Program-made: the position numbers and the translations under genes
The notes under the pieces: model-generated
The model's input: only the letters and a program-made list of their open reading frames with translations
What the model was told of the DNA's origin: nothing
The model's database searches: none
NCBI GenBank assembly: GCA_947464955.1
Contig: CANHZI010000020.1
Coordinates: 1 to 38,972 of the forward strand
Length of the DNA stretch: 38,972 nt
Source: Oxalobacteraceae bacterium
Lineage (GTDB): Bacteria > Pseudomonadota > Gammaproteobacteria > Burkholderiales > Burkholderiaceae_D
Reading direction: 5' to 3'
In this document: in pieces, positions 11,052 to 36,450 of the stretch
Position numbering within the stretch: position 1 is the stretch's first letter
How the letters are laid out: every line of letters starts with the position of its first letter

Positions 11052-11078
11052 TAAAGTCTGAATTGCAACTGCCGTTAA
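11052..11078 (+). promoter_or_regulatory. Putative sigma28 (FliA) promoter of fliD
   Basis: TAAAGTCTGAATTGCAACTGCCGTTAA: TAAA-N15-GCCGTTAA, 7/8 match to the GCCGATAA -10 element with exact spacing; 38 nt upstream of fliD. Confidence 0.8.
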
Positions 11079-11115
11079 TGCTTTAGAGTTCTAGCAAACA
11101 AAGAAGGAGCATAAG

Positions 11116-13131: not shown

Positions 13132-13164
13132 TCCACGAAGCTAATAGAGTAAAAGGAAAATACA

Positions 13165-13638: not shown

Positions 13639-13643
13639 TCAAG

Positions 13644-13979: not shown

Positions 13980-13984
13980 GGTCC

Positions 13985-15558: not shown

Positions 15559-15575
15559 AATACATACAGAGTCAT

Positions 15576-16334: not shown

Positions 16335-16405
16335 ACGAAGTCAGACCAAGCACTTTGCCGCTAAGAGGCTCGCTGTTCTCAACACTTGCCGGTATTTATT
16401 GCCAA

Positions 16406-16747
16406 CTAAATCTGCATATTCATAATGTCATGATAAGCAGAGACAAGCTTATTTCTCACTTGAACAGTGGTCTGAAACGAAATACTCGCCTTTTGCATAG
16501 AAATCATCACATCCGATAGACTCACACTATCATCGCCCAAAGCAAATTTCTTTCCTAGCTCTTGTGATGCACTTTGCTTGGCATTGACAGCATCCAGTGA
16601 ACTCTTCAAGGCGTCGGCAAAATCCAACTTATTGGGTGAAGTGATGGCTGGTGGCGGGCTGGTTCCCGCTTCCATCTTCGCTGCAGCCGCCTTGAGTTGC
16701 GCGACCATCGCATCGATACGAGTTTTATCAATTCCGCCTACATTCAT
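16406..16747 (-). CDS. fliE: Flagellar hook-basal body complex protein FliE
   Basis: C-terminal DDSVSLSDVMISMQKASISFQTTVQVRNKLVSAYHDIMNMQI is canonical FliE; start set at MNVGGIDKTRIDAMVAQLK. Confidence 0.95.
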   Translation of the reverse strand: MNVGGIDKTRIDAMVAQLKAAAAKMEAGTSPPPAITSPNKLDFADALKSSLDAVNAKQSASQELGKKFALGDDSVSLSDVMISMQKASISFQTTVQVRNKLVSAYHDIMNMQI

Positions 16748-16896
16748 GTCTGCCTCACACACTAAATTCAGATGTGCATACATTAACAGCAGATATTTCT
16801 CGCTTAGCGTCAAGAAGAGCGGCTAAACAGGCTTTTTTCTTTCAATTGAATTCGACAAAGACGTTCAAAATTCGTAGTAAGGAAAAAACCAAGGCT

Positions 16897-16912
16897 TGGA
16901 GCAAGACATGCA
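16897..16912 (+). promoter_or_regulatory. Putative sigma54 -24/-12 promoter upstream of fliF
   Basis: TGGAGCAAGACATGCA: conserved GG and GC dinucleotides with exact -24/-12 spacing (TGGCACR-N4-TTGCW consensus); about 40 nt upstream of the fliF ATG. Confidence 0.5.
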
Positions 16913-16950
16913 GAATTTACTGAATTTCAATTACGAGAGTGAGGCAGATC

Positions 16951-18666
16951 ATGGCAACCGTCAATGATGCGGCTCTGATCGAGCCAGCACCTGTTCCTGT
17001 CGTCTTTGGCATACCGCAAACGCCAGGTGTCAGGACTATCATGCTGTCGATTGGTGCAGCGATCACCATCGCCATCATGGCCGGAATCTGGATGTGGAGT
17101 CAAGCGCCCGACTATCGTGTCCTCTTTTCGAACTTCAACGATCGAGATGGTGGTGCCATCGTCGCCTCGCTGCAGCAACTCAATATTCCTTACAAATATT
17201 CCGATGGCGGAAGTGCTATTTTGGTTCCAGCCAATCAAGTACATGATGCAAGACTAAAGCTGGCATCTCAAGGCCTGCCCAAAGGTGGCAATGTTGGTTT
17301 CGAATTAATGGAAAATCAGAAACTGGGTATTTCCCAATTTCTGGAGCAAGTAAATTTTCAGCGCGCTTTGGAGGGTGAATTAGCGCGCTCGATTCAAGCA
17401 GTTTCAGCAGTACAGACAGCAAGGGTACACTTGGCAATTCCCAAAGCCTCGGTATTTGTGCGCGAGCAGCAAAAGCCCACAGCGTCCGTGTTACTTAATC
17501 TCTATCCGAGCAGAGTCCTCGATCAACAACAGGTTAGTGCAATCATTCACTTAGTTGCCAGCAGCATTCCCGAGCTTTCCGCGAAAAATGTGACGATTGT
17601 TGACCAAAACGGCAACCTCTTGTCCGATCCAAGTAAGCAAAATGCCAACCCTAACCTCGATCCGACGCAATTAAAGTACGTTCAAGAATATCAAATGGGT
17701 GTCGTGAAAAAAATCGAATCGATCATTTCGCCTATCGTTGGGGCGCAAAATGTTCGTGCGGAAGCAAGTGCAGACATCGATTTTTCCCGCACAGAACAAG
17801 CTGCGGAAATCTATCGCCCAAATACCCCACCCGAGGCGTCCAGCATTCGCAGTCAGCAAACGAGTGAATCCTATGGAAAACCCAATACCGCATCTGGCGT
17901 ACCTGGCGCACTGAGCAATCAACCTCCCGCTCCCGCAACTGCGCCTCTCACAACACCGGCTAACGCCGCTAGCGGCGCAGCAACTAGTGCCGCGTCTGCA
18001 CCAGCTCTGACGCAAAAAGATGCCACAGTTAACTACGAAGTAGACAAAACGATCAAATACACACAACAAGGCATGGGCGGTCTCAAACGTCTTTCTGTTG
18101 CGGTGGTTGTGAACTATAAGTCTGAGGTCGATAAGAATGGCAAAACCACTACTCGCCCTTTAACTGATATCGAAAAAAATCAAATTACGGACCTTGCACG
18201 CGAAGCCATGGGCTTCTCTAAGGAACGCGGTGATACCCTTAATGTGGTCAACACACCATTCGCGGCACCAGAGAAAGTTGTCAGTGAAGACATCCCCTTA
18301 TGGAAACAAGCAGATGTGATTCAAACCGCGAAAGAGTTTGGTAAGTATCTGATTGGTCTGTTAGCCATGTTCTACATATTTAAGAACTATCTCAAACCAA
18401 CTTTGAACAAGATTACTGGTAAAGATCAAGAGAAAACTGCGGAAGAGAAAAAGAAAGAGGAAGAAGAGAAAATTGCCCTTGAAAAAGCGCAACAAGAAGC
18501 CGATGATGAAGAAGGTGCGATTGTTGAGCTAGAAGGCCAAGTCGATGCGCAAGGGCATAAACAACTATCCACATATGAAATTAATCTGGACATGGCAAAA
18601 CAACTGGCTGCCACTGATCCAAAAATCGTCGCTAACGTGATCAAGACATGGGTGAGCAATGAGTGA
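16951..18666 (+). CDS. fliF: Flagellar M-ring protein FliF
   Basis: MATVNDAALIEP...YRVLFSNFNDRDGGAIVASLQQLNIPYKYSDGGSAILVPANQVHDARLKLASQGLPKGGNVGFELMENQKLGISQFLEQVNFQRALEGELARSIQ; ORF also open from an upstream GTG at 16939. Confidence 0.98.
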   Translation: MATVNDAALIEPAPVPVVFGIPQTPGVRTIMLSIGAAITIAIMAGIWMWSQAPDYRVLFSNFNDRDGGAIVASLQQLNIPYKYSDGGSAILVPANQVHDARLKLASQGLPKGGNVGFELMENQKLGISQFLEQVNFQRALEGELARSIQAVSAVQTARVHLAIPKASVFVREQQKPTASVLLNLYPSRVLDQQQVSAIIHLVASSIPELSAKNVTIVDQNGNLLSDPSKQNANPNLDPTQLKYVQEYQMGVVKKIESIISPIVGAQNVRAEASADIDFSRTEQAAEIYRPNTPPEASSIRSQQTSESYGKPNTASGVPGALSNQPPAPATAPLTTPANAASGAATSAASAPALTQKDATVNYEVDKTIKYTQQGMGGLKRLSVAVVVNYKSEVDKNGKTTTRPLTDIEKNQITDLAREAMGFSKERGDTLNVVNTPFAAPEKVVSEDIPLWKQADVIQTAKEFGKYLIGLLAMFYIFKNYLKPTLNKITGKDQEKTAEEKKKEEEEKIALEKAQQEADDEEGAIVELEGQVDAQGHKQLSTYEINLDMAKQLAATDPKIVANVIKTWVSNE

Positions 18667-19654
18667 AGACGGCATACAAAAAGCAGCCACTTTAATGCTG
18701 GCGCTAGGCGAGGATGCGGCAGCAGAAGTGATGAAGCATCTTGGGCCACGTGAAGTACAAAAAATCGGTGCTGCAATGGCAACTATCGGGGCGATTCCGC
18801 ATGAAACGATTGCCAAGGTGCTCGAAGAATTCAAGTCCCACGCAGACTTGAGTTCATCGGTTGGGCTAGACTCGGATGAATACATTCGCAATGTGTTGAC
18901 CAAGGCGCTCGGCGATGACAAAGCATCGTCATTACTCAACCGAATTCTAGGCGGCAAAGATGCCAGCGGTATTGAAAGTCTGAAGTGGATGGATTCCGCG
19001 TCGGTCGCTGAACTGATCAAGAACGAGCATCCACAAATTATCGCGACCATCTTGGTCCACCTTGAAAGCGATCAGGCGAGTGAAATTTTGAATCACTTTA
19101 GCGAACGCCTTAGAAACGACGCTGTGCTCAGGATTGCAACCCTGGACGGTATCCAACCGACAGCCCTACGCGAACTTAATGATGTGCTGACCAAGTTATT
19201 GACGGGGAACGAAAGCCTCAAGAAAAAATCGATCGGTGGTGTGCGTGCTGCTGCAGAAATTTTGAACTTCATGAGTGGTGAGAATGAAGCCTCCATCATG
19301 GAAAATCTGCGCAAATACGATGGTGATATGGCTGAGAAAATTATGGATGAAATGTTCGTCTTCGATAATATTCTCGAGATCGACGACCGTGGTATCCAAT
19401 TATTGCTGCGCGAAGTACAGTCAGATTCATTGATCATCGCGCTCAAAGGTGCGAATGCAGAAATGCGCGAAAAGATCTTCAAAAACATGTCACAACGTGC
19501 AGCCGAAATGATGCGCGAAGACCTCGAATCAAAAGGCCCTGTTCGTTTGTCTGAAGTTGAAGCGCAACAAAAACAAATTCTGATGATTGTTCGCCGCTTG
19601 GCTGACGAAGGTCAGATTATGCTAGGTGCGAAAGGCGAGGATGCTTATGTCTAG
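18659..19654 (+). CDS. fliG: Flagellar motor switch protein FliG
   Basis: MSEDGIQKAATLMLALGEDAAAEVMKHLGPREVQKIGAAMA...EHPQIIATILVHLESDQASEIL. Confidence 0.98.
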   Translation: MSEDGIQKAATLMLALGEDAAAEVMKHLGPREVQKIGAAMATIGAIPHETIAKVLEEFKSHADLSSSVGLDSDEYIRNVLTKALGDDKASSLLNRILGGKDASGIESLKWMDSASVAELIKNEHPQIIATILVHLESDQASEILNHFSERLRNDAVLRIATLDGIQPTALRELNDVLTKLLTGNESLKKKSIGGVRAAAEILNFMSGENEASIMENLRKYDGDMAEKIMDEMFVFDNILEIDDRGIQLLLREVQSDSLIIALKGANAEMREKIFKNMSQRAAEMMREDLESKGPVRLSEVEAQQKQILMIVRRLADEGQIMLGAKGEDAYV

Positions 19655-20321
19655 TGTGCTCCCCAAAGGACAGCAGACTGCATATCAACGATGGGAACTC
19701 ACCTCGTTTGGTGATGCTCGCCCATCACAAGTAGAAAAACAAACAGAAGTAGCTCGAATCTCAGAAGCTGAAATCGAAGCGATTAAAGCGCAAGCGAGAA
19801 ACGAAGCTTACGCAGAAGGATTTAAAGAAGCCTATCAAGTCGGCTATAACGAAGGGCAACAGACAGGCTATGCAGAAATGCAAGAGCAAGCAAGCAATTT
19901 GGTTGCCCACCTTGAAGGTTTAGCAGAGCAGTTTCAAGATCAATTAAATCAAGCGCATCAAGTTGTTGGCGATGAGCTACTCAAACTTGCTATTAGTCTC
20001 GCAAGCAGCATGACAAAGAAGTATTTTCAAGTCGCGCCAGAAGCAATTACAGACATCGCACAAGAAGCAATCGCCCTGCTGCCGTCGATACAACAACCAG
20101 CGCAAATTTTCTTGCACCCCGACGATGTAGATTTGGTTCGAGAGTTAGGAAATGCGAAGCTAGAAAAGGATGGTTGGCGTTTGCTGGCAGACATGCAAAT
20201 GACACGAGGCGGTTGCCGTATTGAAACCGGCCAGAATGTAGTTGACGCTAGCTATGAAACGCGCTGGAACCGTTTAACCGAGAATCTAATCGGTGTGACC
20301 CAAGCACCAGACAGCTTATGA
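19647..20321 (+). CDS. fliH: Flagellar assembly protein FliH
   Basis: [38 protein letters not shown] (AxxxGxxxG repeats) and [18 protein letters not shown]; start within the fliG 3' end. Confidence 0.95.
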
Positions 20322-21709
20322 GCGCGATCAACTCCCCATTTGCGTGGAAAGAACAGCTACAGTCTAGTCTGAGAAAAGTTCAGCAAGGACAAGTTGATAA
20401 TGTCTCAGGGCGCATAGTGAAAGTTACCGGTTTGGTGATGGAAGCTGTCGGGCTCAAACTTCCCGTCGGTAGCGCCTGTCTAATTGAGCTTCAAAGTGGG
20501 ATTAAAATTGAGGCAGAGGTCGTTGGCTTTGATGGCGATCGTTTATTTTTAATGCCCCAAAGCGATCTTGAAGGTGTAATACCCGGGGCCCCAGTCTTTC
20601 CCGTGAATGCACCACAAGTGCAAGATCCATCGCAGCCACAGCGCAGAAACAGTGATCGTACAAAACATCTCCCCGTTGGGGATGAGCTTTTAGGAAGAGT
20701 ATTGGATGCCAATGGCAGGCCTCTCGATAGTATCGGCCCACTACATTATCGAGCAACAGCACCGCTCGGGGCACGTATTTACAATCCCTTGTCACGAGCG
20801 CCAATCAAAGAACAACTCGACGTGGGTGTAAGAGCGATCAACAGTATGCTGACGGTTGGACGTGGCCAACGACTAGGGCTGTTCGCTGGGTCTGGCGTTG
20901 GTAAGAGCGTATTACTAGGCATGATGGCGCGCTACACCACGGCCGATGTGATTGTGGTCGGCTTAATTGGCGAACGGGGTCGGGAGGTGAAAGAGTTTAT
21001 CGAAGAGATTCTAGGTGAAGAAGGCCTAGCACGTTCGGTCGTCGTCGCTGCTCCCGCAGATGCGCCTCCACTGATGCGCTTACAAGGTGCCGCCTATGCC
21101 ACCACGATCGCTGAATATTTTCGAGATCAAGGGAAGAATGTGTTGTTGATTATGGATTCACTGACGCGTTATGCCATGGCTCAACGTGAGATCGCCTTGG
21201 CCATCGGTGAGCCCCCTGCAACCAAAGGCTACCCGCCTTCTGTATTCGCGAAGCTCCCTATTTTGGTTGAACGTGCCGGTAACGGTAAGCTTGGCGGCGG
21301 CTCTATTACCGCTTTTTATACCGTATTGACCGAGGGTGATGATCAACAAGATCCTATTGCCGACTCCGCTCGAGCGATCCTTGATGGTCATATAGTGCTG
21401 AACCGAACTTTAGCAGAAAGCGGTCATTACCCAGCAATTGATATCGAACAATCCATTAGCCGCGCCATGCACGGCATTACTACACCACAGCACCAAGCGG
21501 CAGCAAGAAAGCTCAAACAACTTTACTCACGTTATGAGCGGAGCCGAGATTTGATCAATGTCGGTGCCTATTCTGCCGGCTCGGACCCTCTTCTTGACGA
21601 GGCAATTCGGAAATACGCAAGAATTCAAGCCTTTTTACAGCAAGAAATCCCTGAAAAGGCGAGCATTTCAGAGAGCTTAGAGGGACTTTCCGCTCTATTC
21701 GAGGCTTAG
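20318..21709 (+). CDS. fliI: Flagellum-specific ATP synthase FliI
   Basis: Walker [78 protein letters not shown]. Confidence 0.98.
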
Positions 21710-21753
21710 ATTTTTGCCGCCTGCAGTATGCTAAGGAAAAGTGAAAATGGCTC

Positions 21754-22197
21754 ATGGCTAAATCGCAACTACAAACACTGATCGAATTGGCTGAAACTGA
21801 ACTGGATAACGCTGCTAAAAGTCTAGGTCGCACTGTAAAGGCCAAGGATGATGCGGATGCACAACTAGTCATGCTGACGCAATACCGATCAGATTATGAA
21901 AATCGGCTACAAGCCACAGCGCAACGTGGCCTGAATGTAGCGCAGTACGCCAACTTTCAAGCGTTTATTGCGAAGTTAGATCAAGCGATTGAAGGACAAA
22001 AGCAAGTCATTGCAGATGCAGAATACCGTGTAAAGCGCGCAACTCAGCATTGGCAAGAATGTGAGAAGAAACGCTTGTCCTATCAAATTTTGATCGACAA
22101 GAACACCAAGCTAGAGCAACAGCGTGATGTAAAACGTGATCAGAAGCAAACAGATGAATTAGCAACTCGGCGACTTTTCTACAATCGATCGAATTAG
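21754..22197 (+). CDS. fliJ: Flagellar export protein FliJ
   Basis: Coiled-coil protein downstream of fliI: LQTLIELAETELDNAAKSLGRTVKAKDDADAQLVMLTQYRSDYENRL. Confidence 0.92.
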   Translation: MAKSQLQTLIELAETELDNAAKSLGRTVKAKDDADAQLVMLTQYRSDYENRLQATAQRGLNVAQYANFQAFIAKLDQAIEGQKQVIADAEYRVKRATQHWQECEKKRLSYQILIDKNTKLEQQRDVKRDQKQTDELATRRLFYNRSN

Positions 22198-22211
22198 AAC
22201 AACCTTTAGGT

Positions 22212-24308
22212 GTGAAAATGCAAAGCTCTCAAGTATTGATCCAACTGACGGCAACCCCGATCTCAGCTAAGAACCCTGGCGTTTCCATCGATCAAAAACA
22301 GAATCCGAATTCAACGTTTAAAGCGGCATTGAACCGCGAGGTCAAGAATCAAACGAATGGTCTTGAATCAAAACAAAATGTCAAAAAAAACGAGTCAAAG
22401 GAAAAGCTCGAATCAAGCCATGCTGAAAAAAACGTAGGCGCCACCAGTACTGTAACCAAAGCGTCTCAAGAGAATGAAAGCCAAGAGGAATTAAAGACAA
22501 CCGATTCCGTAAGCTCCACGGAGCTTCCGGTAGCGAGCAATCAATTTCTTCATCCACTAGAAATTATTCGCGACCTGCAAGCATTGGAGCAAGAAAAAAA
22601 AGACGAGCTCACGCTGACTGATGATCAACACCCAGACGGCAATCTTGCATCGTTAATCAACGTAGGCAATGTTCAAACCAGCCTGCCAACAGATAAGGTT
22701 CAGGACCTTAGCGATGAAACACAAACGATGAGGACGACGGAATTATCGTTAGGCAATCAAACCCTTAGAAATAATAATGCTGAGAAAACCGAAGCTTCAA
22801 CTGACAATAAACAAGATGCCTCGAATATGAAGACAATTCCGATCGATGAACTGGCTGTTCAACGCCCTGCGGGTCCACCAGAGGCTCAGCAAGTTATTAA
22901 AAACCTGAGCGAAAACGACCAGAAAGTCGAAACTGCTGTAGACACAAAAATAGCAGCGGCACCGACAAAGGCAAGTGCCCCTACCACCACTACCTCAGTT
23001 AAAGTAGAGAACAACAGCAAATTGACTGCAAGCCTTAATTCAGCATTGGCAAAAGTGTTCAACACTGAAGTGCCAGCCACAGCGGTTCGCCCACAAACGA
23101 CTGAAGCGCAAGATGCGACTCCAGCAATTCAGGTGACGACACCATTAACGATGATCGATACTGCTGCGAAAACTGATTCCACAGATACCAAAATACAGAA
23201 AGTGGATGCCCTACGCATTCCTGAAGCACAAGGCAACACATCGATCTCAGCGAAAATCGACTCGGCAAGCGCCAAGCAACCTCTTGATCTGTCGCCGGAA
23301 TCTCGCTCTGCTTTGAACATCAGTGGAGATGTCTTACCCGTCGCCATCAGTAAGGATCTAACTAAAACAACTACTGTTGTTTCAACGCAATTGGCGAGTG
23401 AATCTAACAAAACAAGCAGAGAACCAATCTCCAATCTAGGTGACGAAGAAATCGTCAATATAGACGCGGCAAAAAACATCACGGTGAAATTGAGCGAACC
23501 AAATATCGCACCGCCACCCGCGAATACGGTGAAGCCTCAAAGCGAAACCAATGTAACGATCACGCCAAACCAAGCGAGTTTGCCAAATCAAACCATTCGC
23601 AATGGCTTAAACCTGAAAGATAGTGATCGAGATAGCAATACCAAGCTGGGAATGTTGGAGACCCTACAAAACCCAAACATCGCAGCAATAGAAAAGAAAC
23701 AGAGTGATAGCGATTCCAGAATAAACAATCTTGAAAAGAAACACGATTTTGACAGCAGTTTAAAAGAGCGCATGGCGAATAATGCGATGCCACCAGTAAT
23801 GGACGAAACGACGATCGCCAATGCCACTCCAAGTATTGGTGAAACTTCAGTCGCTAGATTAGAAGATAAGCATATTGGGCCTCGCGTTGGCTCTAAGATG
23901 TGGGATCAAGCCATTGGACAGAAAGTCATATGGATGGTTGCTGGCGGGGAACAGAGCGCAGAGCTCAGCTTGAATCCTCCTGATCTTGGTCCATTGCAAG
24001 TGGTTCTCAGTATTAGCGATAACTTTGTCGATGCCAGTTTCGTTTCTTCACACCTTGATGTGAGAGAGGCGATCGAAGCTGCAGCGCCGAAATTAAGAGA
24101 AATGATGGACAACGCTGGCATTTCATTGTCGGGATTCTCTGTTAGCTCACAGTCATCATCTAGCAATATGAACTTCTCAAACGAGCAGAATAGACAGTCA
24201 CCTTCATCTTCTTCAAGAATGAACAAGCTCGAGGTCGATAATTCTGTCCGTGTGAACGCGACACCGGTTTCTCGTACCCAATTGGGTGCGGTTGATACAT
24301 TTGTCTAA
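22212..24308 (+). CDS. fliK: Flagellar hook-length control protein FliK (GTG or internal ATG start)
   Basis: C-terminal GGEQSAELSLNPPDLGPLQVVLSISDNFVDASFVSSHLDVREAIEAAAPKLREMMDNAGISLSGFSVSS. Confidence 0.93.
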   Translation: MKMQSSQVLIQLTATPISAKNPGVSIDQKQNPNSTFKAALNREVKNQTNGLESKQNVKKNESKEKLESSHAEKNVGATSTVTKASQENESQEELKTTDSVSSTELPVASNQFLHPLEIIRDLQALEQEKKDELTLTDDQHPDGNLASLINVGNVQTSLPTDKVQDLSDETQTMRTTELSLGNQTLRNNNAEKTEASTDNKQDASNMKTIPIDELAVQRPAGPPEAQQVIKNLSENDQKVETAVDTKIAAAPTKASAPTTTTSVKVENNSKLTASLNSALAKVFNTEVPATAVRPQTTEAQDATPAIQVTTPLTMIDTAAKTDSTDTKIQKVDALRIPEAQGNTSISAKIDSASAKQPLDLSPESRSALNISGDVLPVAISKDLTKTTTVVSTQLASESNKTSREPISNLGDEEIVNIDAAKNITVKLSEPNIAPPPANTVKPQSETNVTITPNQASLPNQTIRNGLNLKDSDRDSNTKLGMLETLQNPNIAAIEKKQSDSDSRINNLEKKHDFDSSLKERMANNAMPPVMDETTIANATPSIGETSVARLEDKHIGPRVGSKMWDQAIGQKVIWMVAGGEQSAELSLNPPDLGPLQVVLSISDNFVDASFVSSHLDVREAIEAAAPKLREMMDNAGISLSGFSVSSQSSSSNMNFSNEQNRQSPSSSSRMNKLEVDNSVRVNATPVSRTQLGAVDTFV

Positions 24309-24563
24309 GTTGTTGTCGTCTACACAGTTTTTTGAGGTTTTTTGGATGGAATGAAGGTTCATCGCTTATCAAATGCAAAACAATACTATAATTGGATGAG
24401 TGAAATAAATTCCCTATTGAAACTTTTCCCTGAAATTTAGTTTCGATAGATTTGAATTTAAGAGCTAAGCCCAAAATCCTACGTTTTTTCTAGGATGAAA
24501 TTTCTAGAAAAGTGGGGATAATGATCCACAGCGAACACCGTATTGAAGTTGCGAGAGGAAAAA

Positions 24564-25067
24564 ATGTCGAAAGCACCTGCAAAACCAGCAGCAGATGGCG
24601 CAGCGCCAGCAGGAAAGTCCAAAAAGAAACTTATCGTTATCATTTTGGCTGCGGTAGTACTTTTAGGTGGTATTGGTGGGGGAGCGTTTTTCTTTCTTTC
24701 AAAGAAAAAAGCACCTGGAAAAGAAAAAGAACATAAGGAAGAAGTGGCAAAGGCACCCGTTTTCCTACCACTTGAGCCCTTTGTCGTGAATCTGCAATCA
24801 GAAGGCGGAGATAAGTACCTGCAAGTACAAATGACTTTACAGGTTCCCGACGATGCACAGGTCGCGTTGATCAAGGCAAATAACCCCCAAGTTCGTAGCC
24901 GAGTGTTGATGCTACTTTCAAGTAAAGATGCTAATGAAATTCTTACCCAAGAAGGTAAAGACAAGCTAATTGAAGAAATTACTGAACAAATTAATTTGCC
25001 ATTTGTTCCCAAGGGCAATCCGCAAAAAGTCAGCGGTGTATTTTTCACTTCTTTTGTAGTCCAATAA
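24564..25067 (+). CDS. fliL: Flagellar basal body-associated protein FliL
   Basis: MSKAPAKPAADG..., single TM VIILAAVVLLGGIGGGAFFFL, then LEPFVVNLQSEGGDKYLQVQMTLQV; SD GAGAGG upstream of ATG 24564. Confidence 0.95.
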   Translation: MSKAPAKPAADGAAPAGKSKKKLIVIILAAVVLLGGIGGGAFFFLSKKKAPGKEKEHKEEVAKAPVFLPLEPFVVNLQSEGGDKYLQVQMTLQVPDDAQVALIKANNPQVRSRVLMLLSSKDANEILTQEGKDKLIEEITEQINLPFVPKGNPQKVSGVFFTSFVVQ

Positions 25068-25071
25068 AAAC

Positions 25072-26085
25072 GTGTCTGATAATTTTCTATCACAGGAAGA
25101 AGTCGATGCCCTTTTAAAGGGCGTGACTGGCGATCAAGACGATACCGACAATCTTGAAGATACCTCGGGTGTCCGCCCCTATAATTTGGCAACCCAGGAA
25201 CGTATCGTTCGTGGTCGTATGCCAACGCTGGAAATTATCAATGAACGTTTTGCGCGTCTTCTACGTATCGGGCTCTTTAATTTCTTGCGTCGCAGCGCTG
25301 AAGTGTCCGTCGGTACTGTCAAAGTTTCTAAGTACAGCGAATTCATTCGTAACCTCGTGGTACCAACCAATCTAAACCTAACACACATGAAACCCTTGCG
25401 TGGCACATCCTTGATTGTGCTTGACCCTGGCTTGGTGTTTCTATTGGTTGACAACTTATTTGGTGGCGATGGTCGCTTTCATACGCGGGTTGAGGGGCGC
25501 GACTTTACACAAACCGAGCAACGCATTATTCAACGTATTCTCGAAATCATTTACGAGACTTACGCCAAATCTTGGGAACCTGTGTATCCCGTTCAGTTCG
25601 AATATATTCGCTCTGAAATGAATACGCAGTTCGCCAATATTGCCACACCAAATGAGGTGGTTGTCTCTACCACGTTCACCATCGAATTGGGCCCAGTCAG
25701 CGGCGAAATGCATATGTGCATGCCCTACTCCATGATCGAGCCAATTCGCGATTTGCTTACCAGTAGCTTGCAAGGTGAAACACTGGAGATTGACAAACGC
25801 TGGGTGCGTTTAATGACACAACAGATTCAAATTGCTGAGGTTGAACTGGTAGCAGACTTGGGTCAAACCCGCGTCACCCTAGGTGACATTCTGAATATGA
25901 AAGTCGGTGACGTCATTCCTTTACACGTACCGGAAATCGTTTCGGCAAAAGTCGACGGCACACCAGTGATGGAATGTAAATACGGCGTTTTCAACGGCCA
26001 ATATGCCTTACGTGTAGAAAAATTATTAGGCTCAAGCGTCAATGAAATCGCACACGAAGTAATGCAGGGAGAGAATAATGGATGA
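25072..26085 (+). CDS. fliM: Flagellar motor switch protein FliM (GTG start)
   Basis: MSDNFLSQEEVDALLKGVTGDQDD...LVFLLVDNLFGGDGRFHTRVEGRDFTQTEQRII. Confidence 0.98.
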   Translation: MSDNFLSQEEVDALLKGVTGDQDDTDNLEDTSGVRPYNLATQERIVRGRMPTLEIINERFARLLRIGLFNFLRRSAEVSVGTVKVSKYSEFIRNLVVPTNLNLTHMKPLRGTSLIVLDPGLVFLLVDNLFGGDGRFHTRVEGRDFTQTEQRIIQRILEIIYETYAKSWEPVYPVQFEYIRSEMNTQFANIATPNEVVVSTTFTIELGPVSGEMHMCMPYSMIEPIRDLLTSSLQGETLEIDKRWVRLMTQQIQIAEVELVADLGQTRVTLGDILNMKVGDVIPLHVPEIVSAKVDGTPVMECKYGVFNGQYALRVEKLLGSSVNEIAHEVMQGENNG

Positions 26086-26506
26086 CAACAACGAAACCCC
26101 GATCAGTGAAGACGATTGGGGTGCGGCGATTGCTGAACAAGAGAAGGCCGACGCTGAGGCAGCCGCCCGGGCTGCTGCGCCAGCGGTGAACTCTGGTGCT
26201 GGCTTGTTCCAAGAATTTGGAAAAGGTACCCAGTCACAAACACAGAACGATATCGATTTCATTCTCGACATTCCTGTCCAACTCACTGTTGAACTTGGTC
26301 GCACCAAAATCGCAATCAAAAACTTGCTGCAATTGGCACAAGGCTCTGTGGTTGAACTCGATGGTTTAGCCGGTGAACCGATGGATGTGCTCGTCAACGG
26401 TTGTTTGATTGCACAAGGTGAGGTCGTGGTGGTCAATGATAAGTTTGGTATTCGCTTGACTGATATTGTGACGCCTGCTGAACGTATCCGCAAACTGAAC
26501 AAATAA
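26078..26506 (+). CDS. fliN: Flagellar motor switch protein FliN
   Basis: IDFILDIPVQLTVELGRTKIAIKNLLQLAQGSVVELDGLAGEPMDVLVNGCLIAQGEVVVVNDKFGIRLTDIVTPAERI. Confidence 0.98.
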   Translation: MDDNNETPISEDDWGAAIAEQEKADAEAAARAAAPAVNSGAGLFQEFGKGTQSQTQNDIDFILDIPVQLTVELGRTKIAIKNLLQLAQGSVVELDGLAGEPMDVLVNGCLIAQGEVVVVNDKFGIRLTDIVTPAERIRKLNK

Positions 26507-26922
26507 TGCACAAACTCCTCTCGTTTCTGATTTGTATTGCGGCGCCAGGCGTATGCTTGGCGCAAACAAAAACGGTGTCACCAACTACCGGCCTATTACA
26601 AATTTTTTTGGCACTGTCTTTCGTCATTGCGTTGATGTTGGTTGCGGCTTGGTTATTCAAACGAATTGGACCAATCGCAAACGGACATTTGCTACAAATG
26701 AGAGTGATTGGTGGTTTGAATATTGGAAATCGTGAAAAGATCATGGTCGTGGAGGTCGCTGATCAATGGTTAGTGCTCGGAGTGACTGCACAGAACATCA
26801 ATACTTTAGCGACCTTACCCAAACAGGAAATTCCAAGTACAGAAACGAATCAAGTTGTACCGAATTCCTTCGCAGACTGGTTAAAGAAAAATCTCGACAA
26901 GCGCAATTCACCTCAGCCTTAA
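26506..26922 (+). CDS. fliO: Flagellar biosynthetic protein FliO
   Basis: Signal/TM segment then KRIGPIANGHLLQMRVIGGLNIGNREKIMVVEVADQWLVLGVTAQNINTLATLP; between fliN and fliP. Confidence 0.95.
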   Translation: MHKLLSFLICIAAPGVCLAQTKTVSPTTGLLQIFLALSFVIALMLVAAWLFKRIGPIANGHLLQMRVIGGLNIGNREKIMVVEVADQWLVLGVTAQNINTLATLPKQEIPSTETNQVVPNSFADWLKKNLDKRNSPQP

Positions 26923-26931
26923 AGTAAGATT

Positions 26932-27702
26932 ATGAAAAGACCACGCGCTTACCTTGGCCTTGCAGCCAGCCTCGCTGCCTTGGCACTATTCGCGGCAACA
27001 CCGGAAGTTGCGTTTGCACAGGCTAACAGCGCTTTGCCCGTGATCACGAGTACGCCTGCGGCTGGTGGTGGTCAAAACTATTCACTGAGTATTCAGACGC
27101 TGCTGTTTCTAACAGCGCTCAGTTTTTTGCCGGCTGTACTTTTGATGATGACCAGTTTTACGCGAATCATCATCGTCCTCTCTCTATTACGTCAAGCATT
27201 GGGCACACAAGGCGCACCACCAAACCAAGTTCTGGTAGGTCTCTCTTTGTTTCTGACCTTATTTGTCATGGGGCCTTCGTTTGACAAGATATACCAAGAC
27301 GCATACCTACCGTTTAGCGAAAACAAAATTACCATGCAAAAAGCGATGGAGAAAGGTGTTGAGCCACTGAAGCAGTTCATGCTGAAGCAAACTCGAGAAA
27401 CCGACATCGCCCTCTATGTACGTCTTTCAAATACACCAGCGCTACAAGGCCCAGAAGATGTGCCGCTACGTGTTCTGATACCAGCTTTCATTACCAGCGA
27501 ACTTAAGACTGCCTTCCAAATTAGTTTCGCCATCTTTATTCCATTTCTTATTATCGATATGGTGGTAGCTAGCGTGCTGATGGCCATGGGTATGATGATG
27601 GTGTCACCTTCTATCGTATCCCTTCCGTTTAAGTTGATGCTATTTGTACTCGTCGATGGTTGGCAACTATTAATCGGCTCGTTAGCAAGAAGTTTTTATT
27701 AG
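26932..27702 (+). CDS. fliP: Flagellar biosynthetic protein FliP
   Basis: [59 protein letters not shown]. Confidence 0.98.
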
Positions 27703-27710
27703 GAATTGAC

Positions 27711-27980
27711 ATGACACCCGACAGCGTAATGACTTTAGGTCGACATGCAATGGAAATCACCTTGATGGTTTCTGCCCCTCTTCTACTGGTTGCACTGGTG
27801 ATCGGTTTGTTAGTCAGTATCTTCCAAGCAGCCACACAGATCAATGAAACGACACTGTCTTTTATTCCAAAACTTGTCGGCATATTTGTCACTCTCGTGA
27901 TCGCAGGACCCTGGATGCTGACCGTGATGGGCGATTACATGCGTGAAGTATTTACAGGGATCGCCACGATCGCTGGCTAG
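27711..27980 (+). CDS. fliQ: Flagellar biosynthetic protein FliQ
   Basis: MTPDSVMTLGRHAMEITLMVSAPLLLVALVIGLLVSIFQAATQINETTLSFIPKLVGIF. Confidence 0.97.
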   Translation: MTPDSVMTLGRHAMEITLMVSAPLLLVALVIGLLVSIFQAATQINETTLSFIPKLVGIFVTLVIAGPWMLTVMGDYMREVFTGIATIAG

Positions 27981-27985
27981 TCGCC

Positions 27986-28783
27986 ATGATTTCAATTAGT
28001 ACCCAAGAGCTGCTCTCCCTCATCGCCGCATTTCTGTGGCCCCTCACTCGCATACTTGGATTCATTGTCGTCGCCCCGCCATTCGGTAACAATGGCGTCC
28101 CTCCTTTGGTTAAGATCGCGCTCGGCGTAATGCTGGCTTTAATCGTCGCACCGACCATTGATCCCATTGCAAATGTCGACATGGTCTCCATCACAGGCAT
28201 CATGATTCTGATTCAACAGTTTGTCGTTGGGCTTGCTATGGGCTTCATGGTGCGTATCATTATGGCTGGGGTCGAAATGGCGGGTGAAGTTGCAGGCCTC
28301 ACCATGGGATTGGGCTTTGCCACGTTTTTTGATCCACAAACACGAGGTAGATCAACTGCGATCAGCCAATTCTTGGTTATCATTGCGACCTTATTGATCC
28401 TAACGATGAACGTGCATCTAGCAATGTTTGAAGCCTTAGTGACGAGCTTTAAGACGATTCCTATTTCAACTTCCTTAGAAATGGGATTTAGCTCGCAAAA
28501 GCTAGTAATCTGGGGGCAAGAAATATTCAAGGTTGGCATGCTCTTGTCACTCCCGATCGTCGCGGCGCTCTTGATCGCGAATATTGCGCTAGGCATATTG
28601 ACCAGAGCTGCTCCGCAGTTAAACATTTTTGGTATCGGATTTCCGATTACCATCACCGTTGGTTTTGTGATGTTAGGTTTAGTGTTACCCTACCTTCTTT
28701 TACCATTTGAAAACATCTTCCGCCACATGATAGACGCGATTAATAGCATGGGGCAAAGTCTTCCTCCCACACCTTCGAATTAA
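27986..28783 (+). CDS. fliR: Flagellar biosynthetic protein FliR
   Basis: Membrane protein following fliQ: PLTRILGFIVVAPPFGNNGVPPLVKIALGVMLALIVAP...FATFFDPQTRGRSTAISQFL. Confidence 0.97.
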   Translation: MISISTQELLSLIAAFLWPLTRILGFIVVAPPFGNNGVPPLVKIALGVMLALIVAPTIDPIANVDMVSITGIMILIQQFVVGLAMGFMVRIIMAGVEMAGEVAGLTMGLGFATFFDPQTRGRSTAISQFLVIIATLLILTMNVHLAMFEALVTSFKTIPISTSLEMGFSSQKLVIWGQEIFKVGMLLSLPIVAALLIANIALGILTRAAPQLNIFGIGFPITITVGFVMLGLVLPYLLLPFENIFRHMIDAINSMGQSLPPTPSN

Positions 28784-30425: not shown

Positions 30426-32495
30426 CTATCGTATGGGGCGAGGCAGGCTCAATACAAACTCAACGCCATCAGAAACATTACGAGCAGCGATGGTTCCTCC
30501 CATTTTTGCCATATAAGTTTGCGCGACAAATAAACCCTGCCCCCGATTACCATTGGCGCCAGACTCGAGTTGATCCGATACGCCATATTCAAAGATCTTA
30601 TCCAGCATCTCCGGAGCAATATGCGGCCCTTGATTGTGAATGACAACCGACACTGTCGTTTCATCGACTAATAAATAAATCCGAATTGGACTCTCATCAG
30701 GGCGATAACGGTCAGCGTTCTTTAATACATGCGTGACTACATCCTCGAGTGAGTATTCGTCCGCTTTCACCACCAAATTAGATTGATTCGATTCAAACAA
30801 CACATGAGCAATGCCTGCATGAGGTGCGTTCGTAGCGACATGCCGTAGGAATTCAGTAATATCAAGCTCACCAATTTGCAAGACCGTCGATTGGAAAGCC
30901 TCACTCGGCGTCGCACTGCCATAAAGGACTTTAATCGCTTGTTGCATGCGGCTGATGTAGCGATGACTTTCATCCTCAGCGCTAGGATGTAACACCATCA
31001 AACTCTGGAGCGGCGACATGATTTCATGGCCTACCGCATGCCACATTTGCTTTTCTTGCTCAGTACGTATCGTTTCGCGCTCAACGTCTTCTTTCACCCT
31101 ACGCAAAAGATCATGCAAACCACTTGCCAACACCCCAAGCTCATCGGGGCTGCGCAAATCACTCACATCCAGTTGATCGAGCTCCCCTGCCCCTTTCATC
31201 GTGCGCGACAGCGCTGCGGCTCGGCGGGTCAGCAAAGTAATGCGGCGAATAATGCTAATTTCAATCAAAAGCCAAGCCAACAATAAAGCCAACAGCATGG
31301 CGCCGACGAACCAAGAAACGCGGGTTGCCACCACACTCAAACTTTTACTGATGCTGCGCACATCGCCCTTCATCATGAGTTCATAATTATCTAGAGGCGT
31401 ACTGATTAACTCTTTGCTTTCCAAGGGCGTAGCAAACTCGTCGACAGGCAAACGCCGAATCAGTCGCGTGAGTAAGTTCGACGATTCTTCCTCTTGCTCG
31501 ACTTTACCGAGCAATCGGATCACCTCTTTTTTGTCCGAGGATTTACGCAGCACCAAACTCTCACCGGGCAGCAACAAAGCATTGAGGTCGTTCAGTGAAA
31601 ATGGTGTCGCACTTGGAACCGATTTACTATCGAGAAGAGGGATTTCGCTTTCTGGCGCTAAGACGGTCAGTTCCACTTGGATTTGCTCTAAATCCTGCGG
31701 CGGCCAAACGGGCCGTTTCTTTTCAAACAGCGCTTCCTGCAAAACAGCGATAGGCAAACGCAGGGAGAAGAAGGTATTGCGCTCACAATTAAGATCTTTG
31801 CCATCTTTGTCTGCATCCTTATCTGGATTATTACAAACGGCCTTCTGCCAAGCCCAACCACGGAAGTCACGTACTGGACGCGCACCTGATTTAGCAACTT
31901 CAGACTCTAAGAAACCAACCCAGCGTCCACGAATGCCAGAGTTAGGACGCGTACTGATTTCCTCTTCAAAGGGAGCTATCCATTGATAATGTTGTCCGCG
32001 CAAAGCTACGCTAACACGAATACGATGTGCTTCATCTTTGATCAACTGCCCGCGAGGATGCGACACGAGTGCCGCGCTATTGAAACTTCCCGCGACATAG
32101 ATAAAACCACCTGCCCAAGGATTATTCCCAATGCCGACACACAGTGAACCATCATTACCGTATTGCACCAAACAACCCGACATGGCGATGGCCTGCTGCA
32201 CTTTGCTTTGATCGTCAAAGTCTAAGGCAGAGAATGGCAAAAGCAAGGGATGCAAGTTTGCTGTATCTTGATCCAAAGGCGGATTAAGTAATGCCAATTG
32301 ACCCGCAGGATGGCGTAGCGTCGCGGTAATTTGGCTTACGGTCTTATTGAAGTTCGCTTGATAATTGTTGTAACTAAGCTGCTTCTCTTGTTGCAGCAAA
32401 GAGAGTGCAAGTCCTAAGGTTGCCAGTGCCAATAGCAAAAACACGCTACGAAAAATAATCCGTAGTCGATAGCTCGCTAACAGCAAACGTTTCAT
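30426..32495 (-). CDS. Membrane sensor histidine kinase with large extracytoplasmic sensor region
   Basis: TM1 FRSVFLLLALATLGLALSLL, about 350-aa region, TM2 WFVGAMLLALLLAWLLIEISI, HAMP-like segment, H-box WHAVGHEIMSPLQSLM, N-box DVVTHVLKNADRYRP, G-box NGNRGQGLFVAQTYMAKMGG. Start at 32495 overlaps the RR stop (ATGA). Confidence 0.9.
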   Translation of the reverse strand: MKRLLLASYRLRIIFRSVFLLLALATLGLALSLLQQEKQLSYNNYQANFNKTVSQITATLRHPAGQLALLNPPLDQDTANLHPLLLPFSALDFDDQSKVQQAIAMSGCLVQYGNDGSLCVGIGNNPWAGGFIYVAGSFNSAALVSHPRGQLIKDEAHRIRVSVALRGQHYQWIAPFEEEISTRPNSGIRGRWVGFLESEVAKSGARPVRDFRGWAWQKAVCNNPDKDADKDGKDLNCERNTFFSLRLPIAVLQEALFEKKRPVWPPQDLEQIQVELTVLAPESEIPLLDSKSVPSATPFSLNDLNALLLPGESLVLRKSSDKKEVIRLLGKVEQEEESSNLLTRLIRRLPVDEFATPLESKELISTPLDNYELMMKGDVRSISKSLSVVATRVSWFVGAMLLALLLAWLLIEISIIRRITLLTRRAAALSRTMKGAGELDQLDVSDLRSPDELGVLASGLHDLLRRVKEDVERETIRTEQEKQMWHAVGHEIMSPLQSLMVLHPSAEDESHRYISRMQQAIKVLYGSATPSEAFQSTVLQIGELDITEFLRHVATNAPHAGIAHVLFESNQSNLVVKADEYSLEDVVTHVLKNADRYRPDESPIRIYLLVDETTVSVVIHNQGPHIAPEMLDKIFEYGVSDQLESGANGNRGQGLFVAQTYMAKMGGTIAARNVSDGVEFVLSLPRPIR

Positions 32496-33244
32496 ACGCT
32501 TTCCACCCAACGAAAACCGCGCATAGGCACGTTTTCTATGCCTTCGAAATCTGGATCAATTTCTCGAAACGCATCGCGTATGGTGCTCACATGCTTACGA
32601 ATATTGTCGCGATTGCGTCCGCTCTTCACCACTTCATACAGATCGTCATACGACACCACTTGGCCCCGCTTTTCCAACATCACGGCAAGAATGCGTTGCG
32701 CTGTCAAAGGTAAGTTGATCCGCTGCCCTCGCCACATCGGTGTACGTTGGCGCAATGGATCCATGGTCAAGGCTTCACCACTATTTGGTAATTCCTTCGT
32801 CGCTTCTTTCTTCGCTTCATTCTTCGCTTGACGCCGCTCTCTCACGGCGCGCAACATATCCAAAAAGGTTTCGATGAAATCAGCCTCCTCGAAAGTAGCT
32901 TTTTGCAGGTAGTCCCATGCATCTAGCGCCTTCATGATGCTGCGATAGATCGTCGCCGGCATGGCTGATACGACCAATACTGGCGTCGCCTGGCCGTCAC
33001 GACTGATGTTCTTGTTGATGGCATTAATGATCGCTACACCGGCATGGCGTTCGCGACCTAACTCAATGTCCAGCACCACCAAATCGTACTGTTCACGTAC
33101 GATAGCGGCTTCTGCATCATCACGGTTAAACCATTGATCGATTTGTATGCCGGGTTTAGCCGCTTCTATCCAAGTTTTGAACTGATTGCTCGTAGGCAAA
33201 TCATCTTCAATCACTGCAACCCTAATTTCTGACATTGCAGACAT
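32492..33244 (-). CDS. Response regulator: REC domain plus C-terminal winged-helix DNA-binding domain
   Basis: IRVAVIEDDLPTSNQFKTWIE...YDLVVLDIELGRERHAG...PVLVVSAMP...DYLQKATF (D-D-S-K arrangement); C-terminal INLPLTAQRILAVMLEKRGQVVSYDDLYEVVKSGRNRDNIRKHVSTIRDAFREIDPDFEGIENVPMRGFRWV. Start placed at MSAMSEIRV. Confidence 0.88.
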   Translation of the reverse strand: MSAMSEIRVAVIEDDLPTSNQFKTWIEAAKPGIQIDQWFNRDDAEAAIVREQYDLVVLDIELGRERHAGVAIINAINKNISRDGQATPVLVVSAMPATIYRSIMKALDAWDYLQKATFEEADFIETFLDMLRAVRERRQAKNEAKKEATKELPNSGEALTMDPLRQRTPMWRGQRINLPLTAQRILAVMLEKRGQVVSYDDLYEVVKSGRNRDNIRKHVSTIRDAFREIDPDFEGIENVPMRGFRWVESV

Positions 33245-33356
33245 CAACTCGCACTCCAATCTTTGTTCTTTTGTCTCTTGATTTCCGCTAAATCCAGCAG
33301 AAAATCGATGTGTTTTCGCAGTATCCCTTTTTTTGGGGCAAAAGTCAGTCCTCAGC

Positions 33357-33374
33357 TGTGAGTTTTTCCTCACA
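33357..33374. promoter_or_regulatory. Inverted repeat TGTGAG-N6-CTCACA in the RR/SPFH divergent intergenic region (candidate operator)
   Basis: TGTGAG tttttc CTCACA, perfect 6-bp arms, between the divergent genes. Confidence 0.3.
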
Positions 33375-33551
33375 AGATCTTCCGTCTCCTCCGAACGCGC
33401 CGTTTTCTTTCCTGCTTTGCGATGATTTTCACCCGCCGGCGGCATTGAACGCTCTTGCCCGCTAGGCGCAAGATTCGTCTCAAGGAAAGACAACAAGTTC
33501 GATCCCCGGATACACAAACAAAGTCATTTTGAAACCAATTAGGAGGCTACT

Positions 33552-34913
33552 ATGAGCAATCGTTTAAAAACCATCGTTAATGCAGTTCGTTCCAGTTTTA
33601 CTTCTTTGTTCGGCAGCAAAAACCCAGGCTACAGCGCGCCCAGCGGTTTTGACAAAGAGGCGACCACTACGGAAGAAAGTGAATATCAAAGTGAATACCC
33701 AGCGGAGTTCCAGGTCAAAGAACGTCGTCCATTGATTACCAAAAAGACGCTGACAAGCCTAGGTGTAATCAGCGCCATCAGCTTGGTTGCCTACAGCTTG
33801 TATAACCATCCTCCGCTCAAAACGGTAAGCCGTGGCGAAATCGGTATTCGATCTAATCAATTGACGGGCAACGTCACCGCCTTCCGTGAAGGCAGTGTGA
33901 TCGTGATTCCGGGCTTATTCCAATTGCGCAAATTCTCCTTGCAAGATCAGTTATATCGCCCATCGAAAACAAGCGCCAGCAACGATGCTCCGTTTCAGTC
34001 AGTCGAAGGTTTGTCCTTAGGCGTTGATTTGGCTGTGCGTTATGCCATCGACCCAGCTAAGCTCATCAGCAATACCAAAGGTTTACCAGAGAATGTCAAT
34101 GCAGAGATCGTAGAACCGATGGTGCAAGGTGTGATGTACAAGGCGTTCACCCGTTACACGGTCAAAGAGATTTTCTCGACCAAGCGTGGTGAGATTCAAC
34201 AAGTCATCGAAACGGAATTAAAACCTAAATTGGCAGCCGAAGGCATTATTTTGCATGCGGTAATGATCGGCAAGATCGACTTGCCAGAAGATTATAAACG
34301 CGGCATGGAAAAGCTCTTAGCTGAAGAACTTGAGAGTGAAAAAATGCGTTACACCTTGGAACTGAAAGAAAAGCAGGTAAAGCAGTCTGCCTTGGAATCA
34401 GAAGCAGAAAAAGTACGTCGCGAAAAAGCAGCGGAAGCGGCGGGTAATGAACAAGTGATCGCGGCAAAAGCACAAGAGGAAGCCATGAAACACGTATTGC
34501 CGTTCAAACAGAAACAAATCGAACAACGCCAATTGGAAGCAGAAGCCGCCAAAATTTCGATGATCAAAACTTCCGAAGGTAATGCCCAATCACGTTTGAT
34601 TGAAGCCGCCGGTGAAGCCGATTCTCGTCGTAAGTTAGCCGATGCGGAAGCCTATCGCCAAGAATTGGTAGGCAAAGTCTCGAGCGCTCAATTGGAACGT
34701 GACGGTGCACTCTTGAGCAAACACCCATTGTTGATCCAAAAAACCATGGCTGACAAATTGTCCGACAAGATCTCTGTAATTATTGCGCCTCCCCCAGCAG
34801 ATGGCGGCTTCATTGGTTCTGCTTTGCTTGGTAGCGGTAACAATGCCAAAGCGCAACGCACCAATAAAGAAACGCAAACCGAGAACACTGAAGCCAATAC
34901 CGAAAGCAATTAA
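33552..34913 (+). CDS. SPFH (prohibitin/stomatin-like) domain membrane protein with long charged coiled-coil
   Basis: TM TLTSLGVISAISLVAYSLY, KTVSRGEIGIRSNQLTG...GSVIVIPGLFQLRKFSLQDQLYRP, VDLAVRYAIDPAKLISNTKGLPENVNAEIVEPMVQGVMYKAFTRYTVKEIFSTKRGEIQQVIETELKPKLAAEGIILHAVMIGKIDLPEDYKRGMEKLLAEELESEKMRYTLELKEKQ; strong SD AGGAGG. Confidence 0.9.
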   Translation: MSNRLKTIVNAVRSSFTSLFGSKNPGYSAPSGFDKEATTTEESEYQSEYPAEFQVKERRPLITKKTLTSLGVISAISLVAYSLYNHPPLKTVSRGEIGIRSNQLTGNVTAFREGSVIVIPGLFQLRKFSLQDQLYRPSKTSASNDAPFQSVEGLSLGVDLAVRYAIDPAKLISNTKGLPENVNAEIVEPMVQGVMYKAFTRYTVKEIFSTKRGEIQQVIETELKPKLAAEGIILHAVMIGKIDLPEDYKRGMEKLLAEELESEKMRYTLELKEKQVKQSALESEAEKVRREKAAEAAGNEQVIAAKAQEEAMKHVLPFKQKQIEQRQLEAEAAKISMIKTSEGNAQSRLIEAAGEADSRRKLADAEAYRQELVGKVSSAQLERDGALLSKHPLLIQKTMADKLSDKISVIIAPPPADGGFIGSALLGSGNNAKAQRTNKETQTENTEANTESN

Positions 34914-34922
34914 TTCGGTCTC

Positions 34923-34959
34923 AACGACACCTTAACGACACCTTAACGACACCTAACGA
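34923..34959. repeat. Short tandem repeat (AACGACACCTT)x~3.4 between the SPFH gene and the SH3-like gene
   Basis: AACGACACCTT AACGACACCTT AACGACACCT AACGA read directly. Confidence 0.9.
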
Positions 34960-34983
34960 TTATTTCTTACAACAGGATCTATC

Positions 34984-36450
34984 ATGTTTAGCACCTTAAG
35001 TACCATCGCCGCTTCCAGTTTGATCGCCATCGTCACCCAAGACCAGGCAGCACTCAGAGCCTCACCTCGCGATAGTGCTCAGCAACAAGTCGTCCTATGG
35101 CAAGGCGATAGCCTCGAAATTCGTGGCGAGCGCATGGACTATTTGCAGGTATATGACCATAGACGTGAACGCGCTGGCTTCATCAAAGCGAGTCAAGTGC
35201 GCTTGGTCAGAACCGAAGCCGATGGTGCCGCTGAAAGTATGTCAGTGATCCGTTTTCTGCGCGACACACCTGGCTCCGAAGCTCTCGGCATTAGCTACGC
35301 TGCCGCCTATTTGAAAGCCGCACCAGCGAATCAAATCAACGCTGAAATCTTTGATGCGTTAGGTAGCATGGCCGAGCGTTTAGCACGCCGCTCGACGAAT
35401 TTACAAGCGCAGACCGGAAGCACAAAGCCAAACAAACAAATGGAAACCGCGATTGCAGCGCACTTAGAAGTGGCGACCTACTACGGTGTGCAATTCAAAA
35501 GCTTTGAACGCGAAGGCCGTATTCAACTTTGCTATGACGGTGAGGCTTTTCGCCGTGTCTTAGCCATGAACGCAAGCGACGAACAAAAGGCCCGTGCCGC
35601 ACTAGCGCTAACACGTTCGGAATGTATCGATCCGGCGACCAGACCATTAGAAAAATCTGCGATCGACACCTGGCGTGCCGATGTGTTGGACCGTGTAGAG
35701 ACAAGTAAATTACCAGAACAACTAAAGAATCGTATCAAAATGCGTAAAGCAACAGTATGGTCGGCAATCGCCTTTCAACGTGCGCGGAAAGCGGAAAACA
35801 AAGATGAAATGAACAAGGATGTACAAGCAGCCGGCAATCGCGCCGTACTTGAATTAGCTTCCATCAACAAAGAAGAATTAAGTGACGAAGACAAATTCAG
35901 CTATACCGACACAGGCATTCGTGCCGGCACTTCACGTTGGGCGGCAGAACTTGCAATGCAAAACAAAAGTACATTAAAAATCGTCACTAGCGCTGGTGAA
36001 CCTGGTGAAACTTGCGTCCATCTGATCGACGCTAAACATGACTTGAAGAATCCCTTAGCTAAACGTTGTACTTACAGCGTAGTATGGTCACACTCAGCGC
36101 GCGCGAATACCCATAGCACCGCACTCACACTCGCCGTACAACCGATGGAAAGTTGGCGTGAATTATGGCTATTCCATCAAACAAGTAACGGCTGGATCAT
36201 TGACGTTCTGCCACCAGCCAATACCGATCCACAGTTAGGCTATGTCGAATTCGCAGGTTGGGTGCCAGCGACAAATAAAATGCTGGTAGCGCGCGAGGCG
36301 AAAGTCGATGGCGTCTTTAAACGTCGATTTGAGGTCATTAATATGGATACGCTGCAGGCAGAAAACGGTGCTGACAATCCTTCCTCATTGAGCACCTTCT
36401 ACAAATGGCAAGATGCTATATGGAAGAGTCAGACCTTGAGTCTACGCTAA
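34984..36450 (+). CDS. Secreted/periplasmic SH3-like domain protein of unknown function
   Basis: N-terminal signal-like MFSTLSTIAASSLIAIVTQ, then ALRASPRDSAQQQVVLWQGDSLEIRGERMDYLQVYDHRRERAGFIKASQVRLVR (bacterial SH3 pattern). Confidence 0.75.
   Translation: MFSTLSTIAASSLIAIVTQDQAALRASPRDSAQQQVVLWQGDSLEIRGERMDYLQVYDHRRERAGFIKASQVRLVRTEADGAAESMSVIRFLRDTPGSEALGISYAAAYLKAAPANQINAEIFDALGSMAERLARRSTNLQAQTGSTKPNKQMETAIAAHLEVATYYGVQFKSFEREGRIQLCYDGEAFRRVLAMNASDEQKARAALALTRSECIDPATRPLEKSAIDTWRADVLDRVETSKLPEQLKNRIKMRKATVWSAIAFQRARKAENKDEMNKDVQAAGNRAVLELASINKEELSDEDKFSYTDTGIRAGTSRWAAELAMQNKSTLKIVTSAGEPGETCVHLIDAKHDLKNPLAKRCTYSVVWSHSARANTHSTALTLAVQPMESWRELWLFHQTSNGWIIDVLPPANTDPQLGYVEFAGWVPATNKMLVAREAKVDGVFKRRFEVINMDTLQAENGADNPSSLSTFYKWQDAIWKSQTLSLR

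Follow-up and report, generated by a model that had tools for sequence, protein, structure and literature searches.

The window analysed here, a stretch of 38,972 nt from an Oxalobacteraceae bacterium (contig CANHZI010000020.1), carries a four-gene module in which genes for a histidine kinase (HK) and a response regulator (RR) on the minus strand diverge from genes for an SPFH protein and an SH3-type protein (SH3 protein) on the plus strand. As judged from sequence comparison, the module is probably a dedicated, or private, two-component circuit, in which RR would activate both rr-hk and spfh-sh3 through a common operator. Since a predicted operator box tracks RR across genomes, is kept as separate copies where the two gene pairs are split, stands in helical phase with a promoter element on the SPFH side and is nearly unique in each genome, it is very probable that RR activates spfh-sh3 as well as its own operon, with few other targets.

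Distribution of the module

All four open reading frames (ORFs) are present in the window, the ATG start codon of HK overlapping the stop codon of RR as ATGA (32492–32495). About 310 bp separate the divergent RR and spfh genes, and the spfh-sh3 gap is 70 nt, compared with a 4-nt overlap in relative L028. Because orthologues that are 50–88% identical share this layout unchanged in dozens of species, the arrangement is beyond chance. Among the matches listed, the closest named record with the locus was Undibacterium nitidum, with an SH3 protein 99% identical to that of the window. Flanking genes vary between most genomes, while the four module genes stay together.

In a survey of 36 genomes of the genus the module was found in 14, and the other 22 lacked close homologues of every one of its genes; in G035 HK and RR are missing solely because the contig ends. 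Within the order, 18 of 399 Burkholderiales genomes had the SH3 gene and 16 had RR, with both present in 15 and neither in 380 (Fisher's exact test, p = 2e-23). In a scan of 84,980 species, relatives of the SH3 protein were encoded by at least 127 stretches; the locus counts rest on the 80 SH3 loci kept from these. SPFH adjoins SH3 in 79 of the 80, about 60 of them also having the divergent HK-RR pair. The SPFH-SH3 loci without HK-RR are found chiefly in Lysobacterales and in a few Betaproteobacteria, and an orthologous RR was absent genome-wide in 13 of 14 tested genomes of this kind. Since SPFH-SH3 is thus found without HK-RR in other lineages, the effector pair is not dependent on that sensor, and from the distribution of the loci SPFH-SH3 emerges as the core and HK-RR as its regulator in Betaproteobacteria. 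Plasmid carriage of the module was looked for and none was found; PADLOC models of anti-phage defence gave only weak matches in the kinase and receiver regions.

A preliminary description of the window had reported the divergent four-gene arrangement, ATGA overlap included, and had proposed a functional link between the two pairs. The arrangement is confirmed by the ORFs and by the like layout of orthologous loci. Co-conservation of the pairs had been set beforehand as one of two tests by which the link could be refuted, and it held, all-or-none in the genus and with the strong association found in the order. The link is further favoured by the RR-linked architecture described below, which sits inside the region named in that description (33245–33551). 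The earlier interpretation is supported in part, the membrane-microdomain and cell-wall roles raised with it being conjectural.

A predicted operator shared by the divergent promoters

The RR-spfh intergenic region contains a conserved box of the form GTGAg..TTTcTTCAC. An unsupervised expectation-maximization motif search found GCTGTGAGTTTTTCTTCACACG in all 38 non-redundant intergenic regions (log-likelihood 541 vs 75–82 for shuffled sequences), the motif holding 1.48 bits per column and its flanks 0.2–0.35. The strict pattern occurs in 61 of 62 loci with RR, the sole exception (L108) having a palindromic variant that scores 8.3 bits. Each intact locus has one site, which scores 29.6 bits in the window and 20–38 bits over the intact RR-containing loci with the strict pattern. 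No box was found upstream of SPFH in genomes without RR (best score 5.5 bits), and a 17-bit box is retained at spfh in L057, the RR of which lies elsewhere in the genome. In the split loci of two species, L028 (about 6 kb apart) and L102 (about 4 kb apart), each gene pair has its own box with its orientation to the gene unchanged. A genome-wide scan of 24 genomes with the box pattern detected, in those with RR, the locus site and 0–2 others, which is about the rate in genomes without RR; a wider regulon was thus not seen, there being neither further conserved targets nor an excess over the RR-less genomes.

On the RR side, 27 of the 38 non-redundant loci have a sigma70-like promoter pattern, TGACtT-N16/17-GATACT, the spacing of which to the box is constant, and on the SPFH side all 38 have another element (log-likelihood 497 vs 99–110 for shuffles). 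The distance from the box to the latter takes only the values 9–10, 29–30 or 50–51 nt in 60 of 60 intact loci, i.e. steps of 20–21 bp or two helical turns, with a phasing resultant length of 0.93 at 10.4 bp over these loci, which are not phylogenetically independent; the offset classes 29 and 50 alternate inside the genus. In the split loci L028 and L102 the element stands beside the SPFH-side box only (25.7 and 32.1 bits, respectively, vs −7.6 and −9.7). Such phased architecture fits a face-of-helix-dependent activator. A sigma54 promoter on the SPFH side, raised by GG-N10-GC-like spacing, was rejected for lack of conservation of the GG.

As regards the DNA between the separated pairs, the insert of about 6 kb in L028 (7896–12968; genome G003) includes a CBM5/12-GH18 chitinase-like gene and a gene for a thioredoxin-fold protein, and that of about 4 kb in L102 (3727–7517) may be a mobile element, as its ends resemble inverted repeats (CGGGAAAT..TGCGGTCGAC).

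Table 1. Genes and predicted regulatory features of the module in the window
Feature	Position	Strand	Basis and remarks
HK	30426..32495	−	ORF; Pfam HAMP + HATPase_c; transmembrane segments; conserved motifs; AlphaFold2 sensor model
RR, OmpR-type	32492..33244	−	Start ATG 33244 or 33235; Pfam Response_reg + Trans_reg_C
Predicted RR-HK promoter, −10 (GATACT)	33320..33325	−	Conserved pattern at fixed offset from the box
Predicted RR-HK promoter, −35 (CTGACT)	33343..33348	−	17-nt spacer
Predicted RR operator box, GTGAGTTTTTCCTCAC	33358..33373	+	Motif search; common to both divergent promoters
Phased element, predicted spfh promoter (tgcccc..gc..GCATTGa...ctTCC type)	33426..33455	+	Offset class 50
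SPFH/Band_7 protein	33552..34913	+	Pfam Band_7; AGGAGG at 33541–33546
SH3-type protein	34984..36450	+	Structure model; no Pfam family

Features of the four proteins

The HK-RR pair has the sequence features by which it can be assigned to the OmpR-family two-component systems. The receiver and winged-helix domains of RR matched PF00072 and PF00486, both over the cut-off, and its acidic pocket, the presumed phospho-acceptor D55, S89 and K111 (aligned-fragment numbering) are invariant. In HK the HATPase_c match has an E-value of 2e-14, and the H-box HEIMSPL and the N/G boxes are invariant across orthologues; the HisKA Pfam model did not reach E < 1. The transmembrane (TM) segments of HK, at residues of about 13–31 and 393–411, leave an extracytoplasmic region of about 360 aa, for which no match was found among Pfam families, NCBIfam or PDB sequences. 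This sensor region contains exactly four cysteines, 100% invariant, and its AlphaFold2 model has a mean predicted local distance difference test (pLDDT) score of 81.7. Its identity as a START domain, given only as a weak match by structure search (E 1e-3, TM-score 0.2), was not accepted.

The SPFH protein matched PF01145 with 68.5 bits (cut-off 23.6; E 1e-18) and lacks cysteine. A single N-terminal TM segment (residues of about 67–84) is followed directly by the SPFH domain and then by a long coiled coil. Among solved structures the closest by sequence was prohibitin 1 (E 9e-5), the matches being to prohibitins only and weak (E 9e-5 to 2e-3). Because a positively charged stretch precedes the TM segment in most orthologues, an N-in/C-out topology like that of HflK/C is suggested; in the window protein the positive-inside rule is ambiguous, with a net charge of −1 before the segment and +2 after it. 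Both the single-TM, prohibitin-like protein with a long coiled coil and the kinase with an outsized extracytoplasmic region (~350 aa) of no recognisable family had been anticipated in the preliminary description and are borne out here.

For the SH3 protein no family match was obtained in Pfam or NCBIfam. Its structure model (pLDDT 90.6; predicted template modelling score 0.87) comprises an SH3b-like domain (about 12–76), an alpha-helical middle (79–321) and a beta-sheet C-terminal domain (332–463), for which the PDB gave local SH3, propeller and TPR-like matches only, none at E ≤ 0.001. The protein has exactly four cysteines (183, 214, 344 and 362), 100% invariant, which together with those of the HK sensor would fit disulphides outside the cytoplasm. 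In one metagenome-assembled genome (L041, 755–2188) the reading frame of the SH3 gene is interrupted by a TAG codon close behind the N-terminal strand (AIVT*DQA), at a position occupied by Gln in others.

Proposed circuit and alternative explanations

In the circuit proposed, HK would sense a signal via its extracytoplasmic domain, which belongs to no known family and presumably contains disulphides, and would phosphorylate the OmpR-type RR. RR would then bind the single 16-bp box between the divergent operons and act as an activator rather than a repressor, both at its own promoter and at that of spfh-sh3, where it would act from positions phased to one face of the helix. The SPFH product, a prohibitin-like membrane protein, is predicted to form a periplasm-facing ring or cage of the HflKC/prohibitin type, on which its SH3-alpha-beta partner, predicted to be periplasmic, would dock. 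The envelope-stress label for the circuit is a reasonable guess based on the compartment and on SPFH biology, and the idea that its output would protect or organise the inner membrane during such stress is speculative. With some reserve, SPFH and SH3-alpha-beta may be considered as a separate, modular machine of the prohibitin type that faces the periplasm and has an adaptor family of its own. In Betaproteobacteria this machine would be controlled by a private two-component system and in other lineages by other means, HK then representing a new disulphide-stabilised sensor class that reads the state of the same compartment.

Of the alternatives, the one that survives best, although it is unlikely, regards SPFH and SH3 as accessory sensors of HK (modulators of the CpxP or LiaF type) and the module as mainly a signalling device with feedback, not an effector. 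The periplasm would hold the SH3 protein, the HK sensor and, if the predicted N-in/C-out topology applies, the SPFH domain as well, divergent co-regulation would provide the feedback, and co-inheritance is near-perfect. However, SPFH-SH3 occurs in at least 15 genomes without an orthologous HK-RR and therefore has a function of its own, and with no other clear box targets such a device would be left without output beyond itself.

A further explanation is that the four genes are a co-transferred island held together by shared ancestry, as the patchy presence inside the genus would allow, and that the intergenic conservation is due to another regulator, e.g. a global factor acting on a GTGA-N8-TCAC palindrome. 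GTGA...TCAC is indeed similar to CRP/FNR half-sites; however, the arms of the box are 8 nt apart rather than 6 as in CRP sites, the box is near-unique per genome, unlike the sites of global regulators, and it follows the presence of RR and stands at both pairs in split loci, all of which makes this explanation very improbable.

It is tempting to see in SPFH-SH3 the membrane scaffold of Rtc RNA repair. In the Lysobacterales loci L097, L098, L106, L107 and L062 the pair is convergent with rtcR, which is followed by rtcB wherever the contig reaches that far (on the short contig of L062 only rtcR is seen), and in L087 rtcR/rtcB are 4 kb off. Within the genus RtcR is present in 10 of 14 module-positive vs 4 of 22 module-negative genomes (p = 0.004), and the SPFH protein PaFlo8 of Pseudomonas aeruginosa sits in the rtc locus of that species (PMC13086221). 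Membership was nevertheless rejected, and the scaffold reading ranks as the least probable of all: the window's own genome has a separate rtc locus that has its own, different Band_7 protein and lacks the RR box; moreover, the Lysobacterales adjacency may be a single ancestral event, and RtcR was not seen in four module-positive genomes (one only 70% complete). That rtc operon (L171, 7468–14910; genome G000, contig C69) encodes a 376-aa Band_7/SPFH protein, RtcB-like and RtcA-like ORFs and a protein that weakly matches HEAT repeats. In another rtc locus (L172; G026) ARAGORN placed a tRNA of undetermined identity, possibly a tRNA-like RNA, at 13723–13797, just 3' of the RtcA-like ORF; adjoining the module itself, ARAGORN gave no consistent cognate tRNA or tmRNA gene.

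Several observations weigh against the private circuit. Most loci without RR are phylogenetically distant, so that the absence of the box there is partly confounded, and no box was found at the RR of the Accumulibacter genome of L057, which lies apart from SPFH (L177). Genome G047 has HK-RR without SPFH-SH3, yet a strict-pattern box with a low position weight matrix score (0.4) is found upstream of its RR, an arrangement that is either a relic or a swapped target. The box could also be read by another factor that tracks RR. RtcR presence correlates weakly with the module in the genus, and fold searches yielded a convincing analogue neither for the HK sensor nor for the SH3 protein. Finally, the N-terminus of the SH3 protein in the window (34984–35030), as in the HK-RR lineages, is short, uncharged and hydrophobic, with no canonical signal peptide. 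The exported SH3-like protein of the preliminary description retains its SH3b-like domain, by the model, while export is not obvious from this N-terminus, though relatives outside the HK-RR lineages (e.g. L062, L098, L106) carry canonical signal peptides.

The gene opposite the RR box of G047 (L031, 8787–9606) encodes a darcynin domain, and a weak element of the SPFH type, scoring 9 bits, stands at the phased offset of 51.

Relation to known systems

In envelope stress circuits of the LiaRS-LiaIH and CpxRA type a two-component system controls its own expression and that of a module which protects the membrane or acts as a scaffold, and in this they resemble the circuit proposed here; the sensor and effectors of the present module are, however, unrelated to theirs, and its regulon is near-single-target. 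Like the proteins of HflK-HflC and prohibitin cages, the SPFH protein has its SPFH domain directly after an N-terminal TM segment, with a long coiled coil beyond, but the similarity is weak, its partner is of SH3 type and not a second SPFH or, as far as seen, FtsH, and the module is under dedicated two-component control and very patchy in distribution. The dedicated sortase system (TIGR03785/TIGR03787) supplies the best NCBIfam match of RR and an HK of similar length with a large N-terminal region. Membership in its proteobacterial form was rejected on scores far below the cut-off (HK 40.9 vs 612.2 bits; RR 68.2 vs 335.7 bits) and on sensor domains that are unrelated (hhalign probability 0.3%), and a sortase gene was not seen in the module. 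Genes for SPFH proteins of the flotillin/FloA and QmcA type are paired with NfeD (PMC13086221). The spfh gene of the module likewise has one conserved partner, which differs in consisting of SH3b, helical and beta domains and is not NfeD because it has no Pfam match at all.

No paper that connects SPFH with both an SH3 partner and a two-component system was found in the literature. The module offers one SPFH family with a fixed partner, a dedicated sensor and a predicted operator that can be named to the base, and the circuit would be a direct handle by which to switch the prohibitin-like module on, to find its inducing signal and to read what it does. The families represented by the SH3 protein and by the sensor domain of HK have no match in Pfam or NCBIfam and no convincing one in the PDB. 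Elsewhere in the window, upstream of the module (9080–28783), lies a big flagellar cluster with genes from flagellin- to FliR-like.

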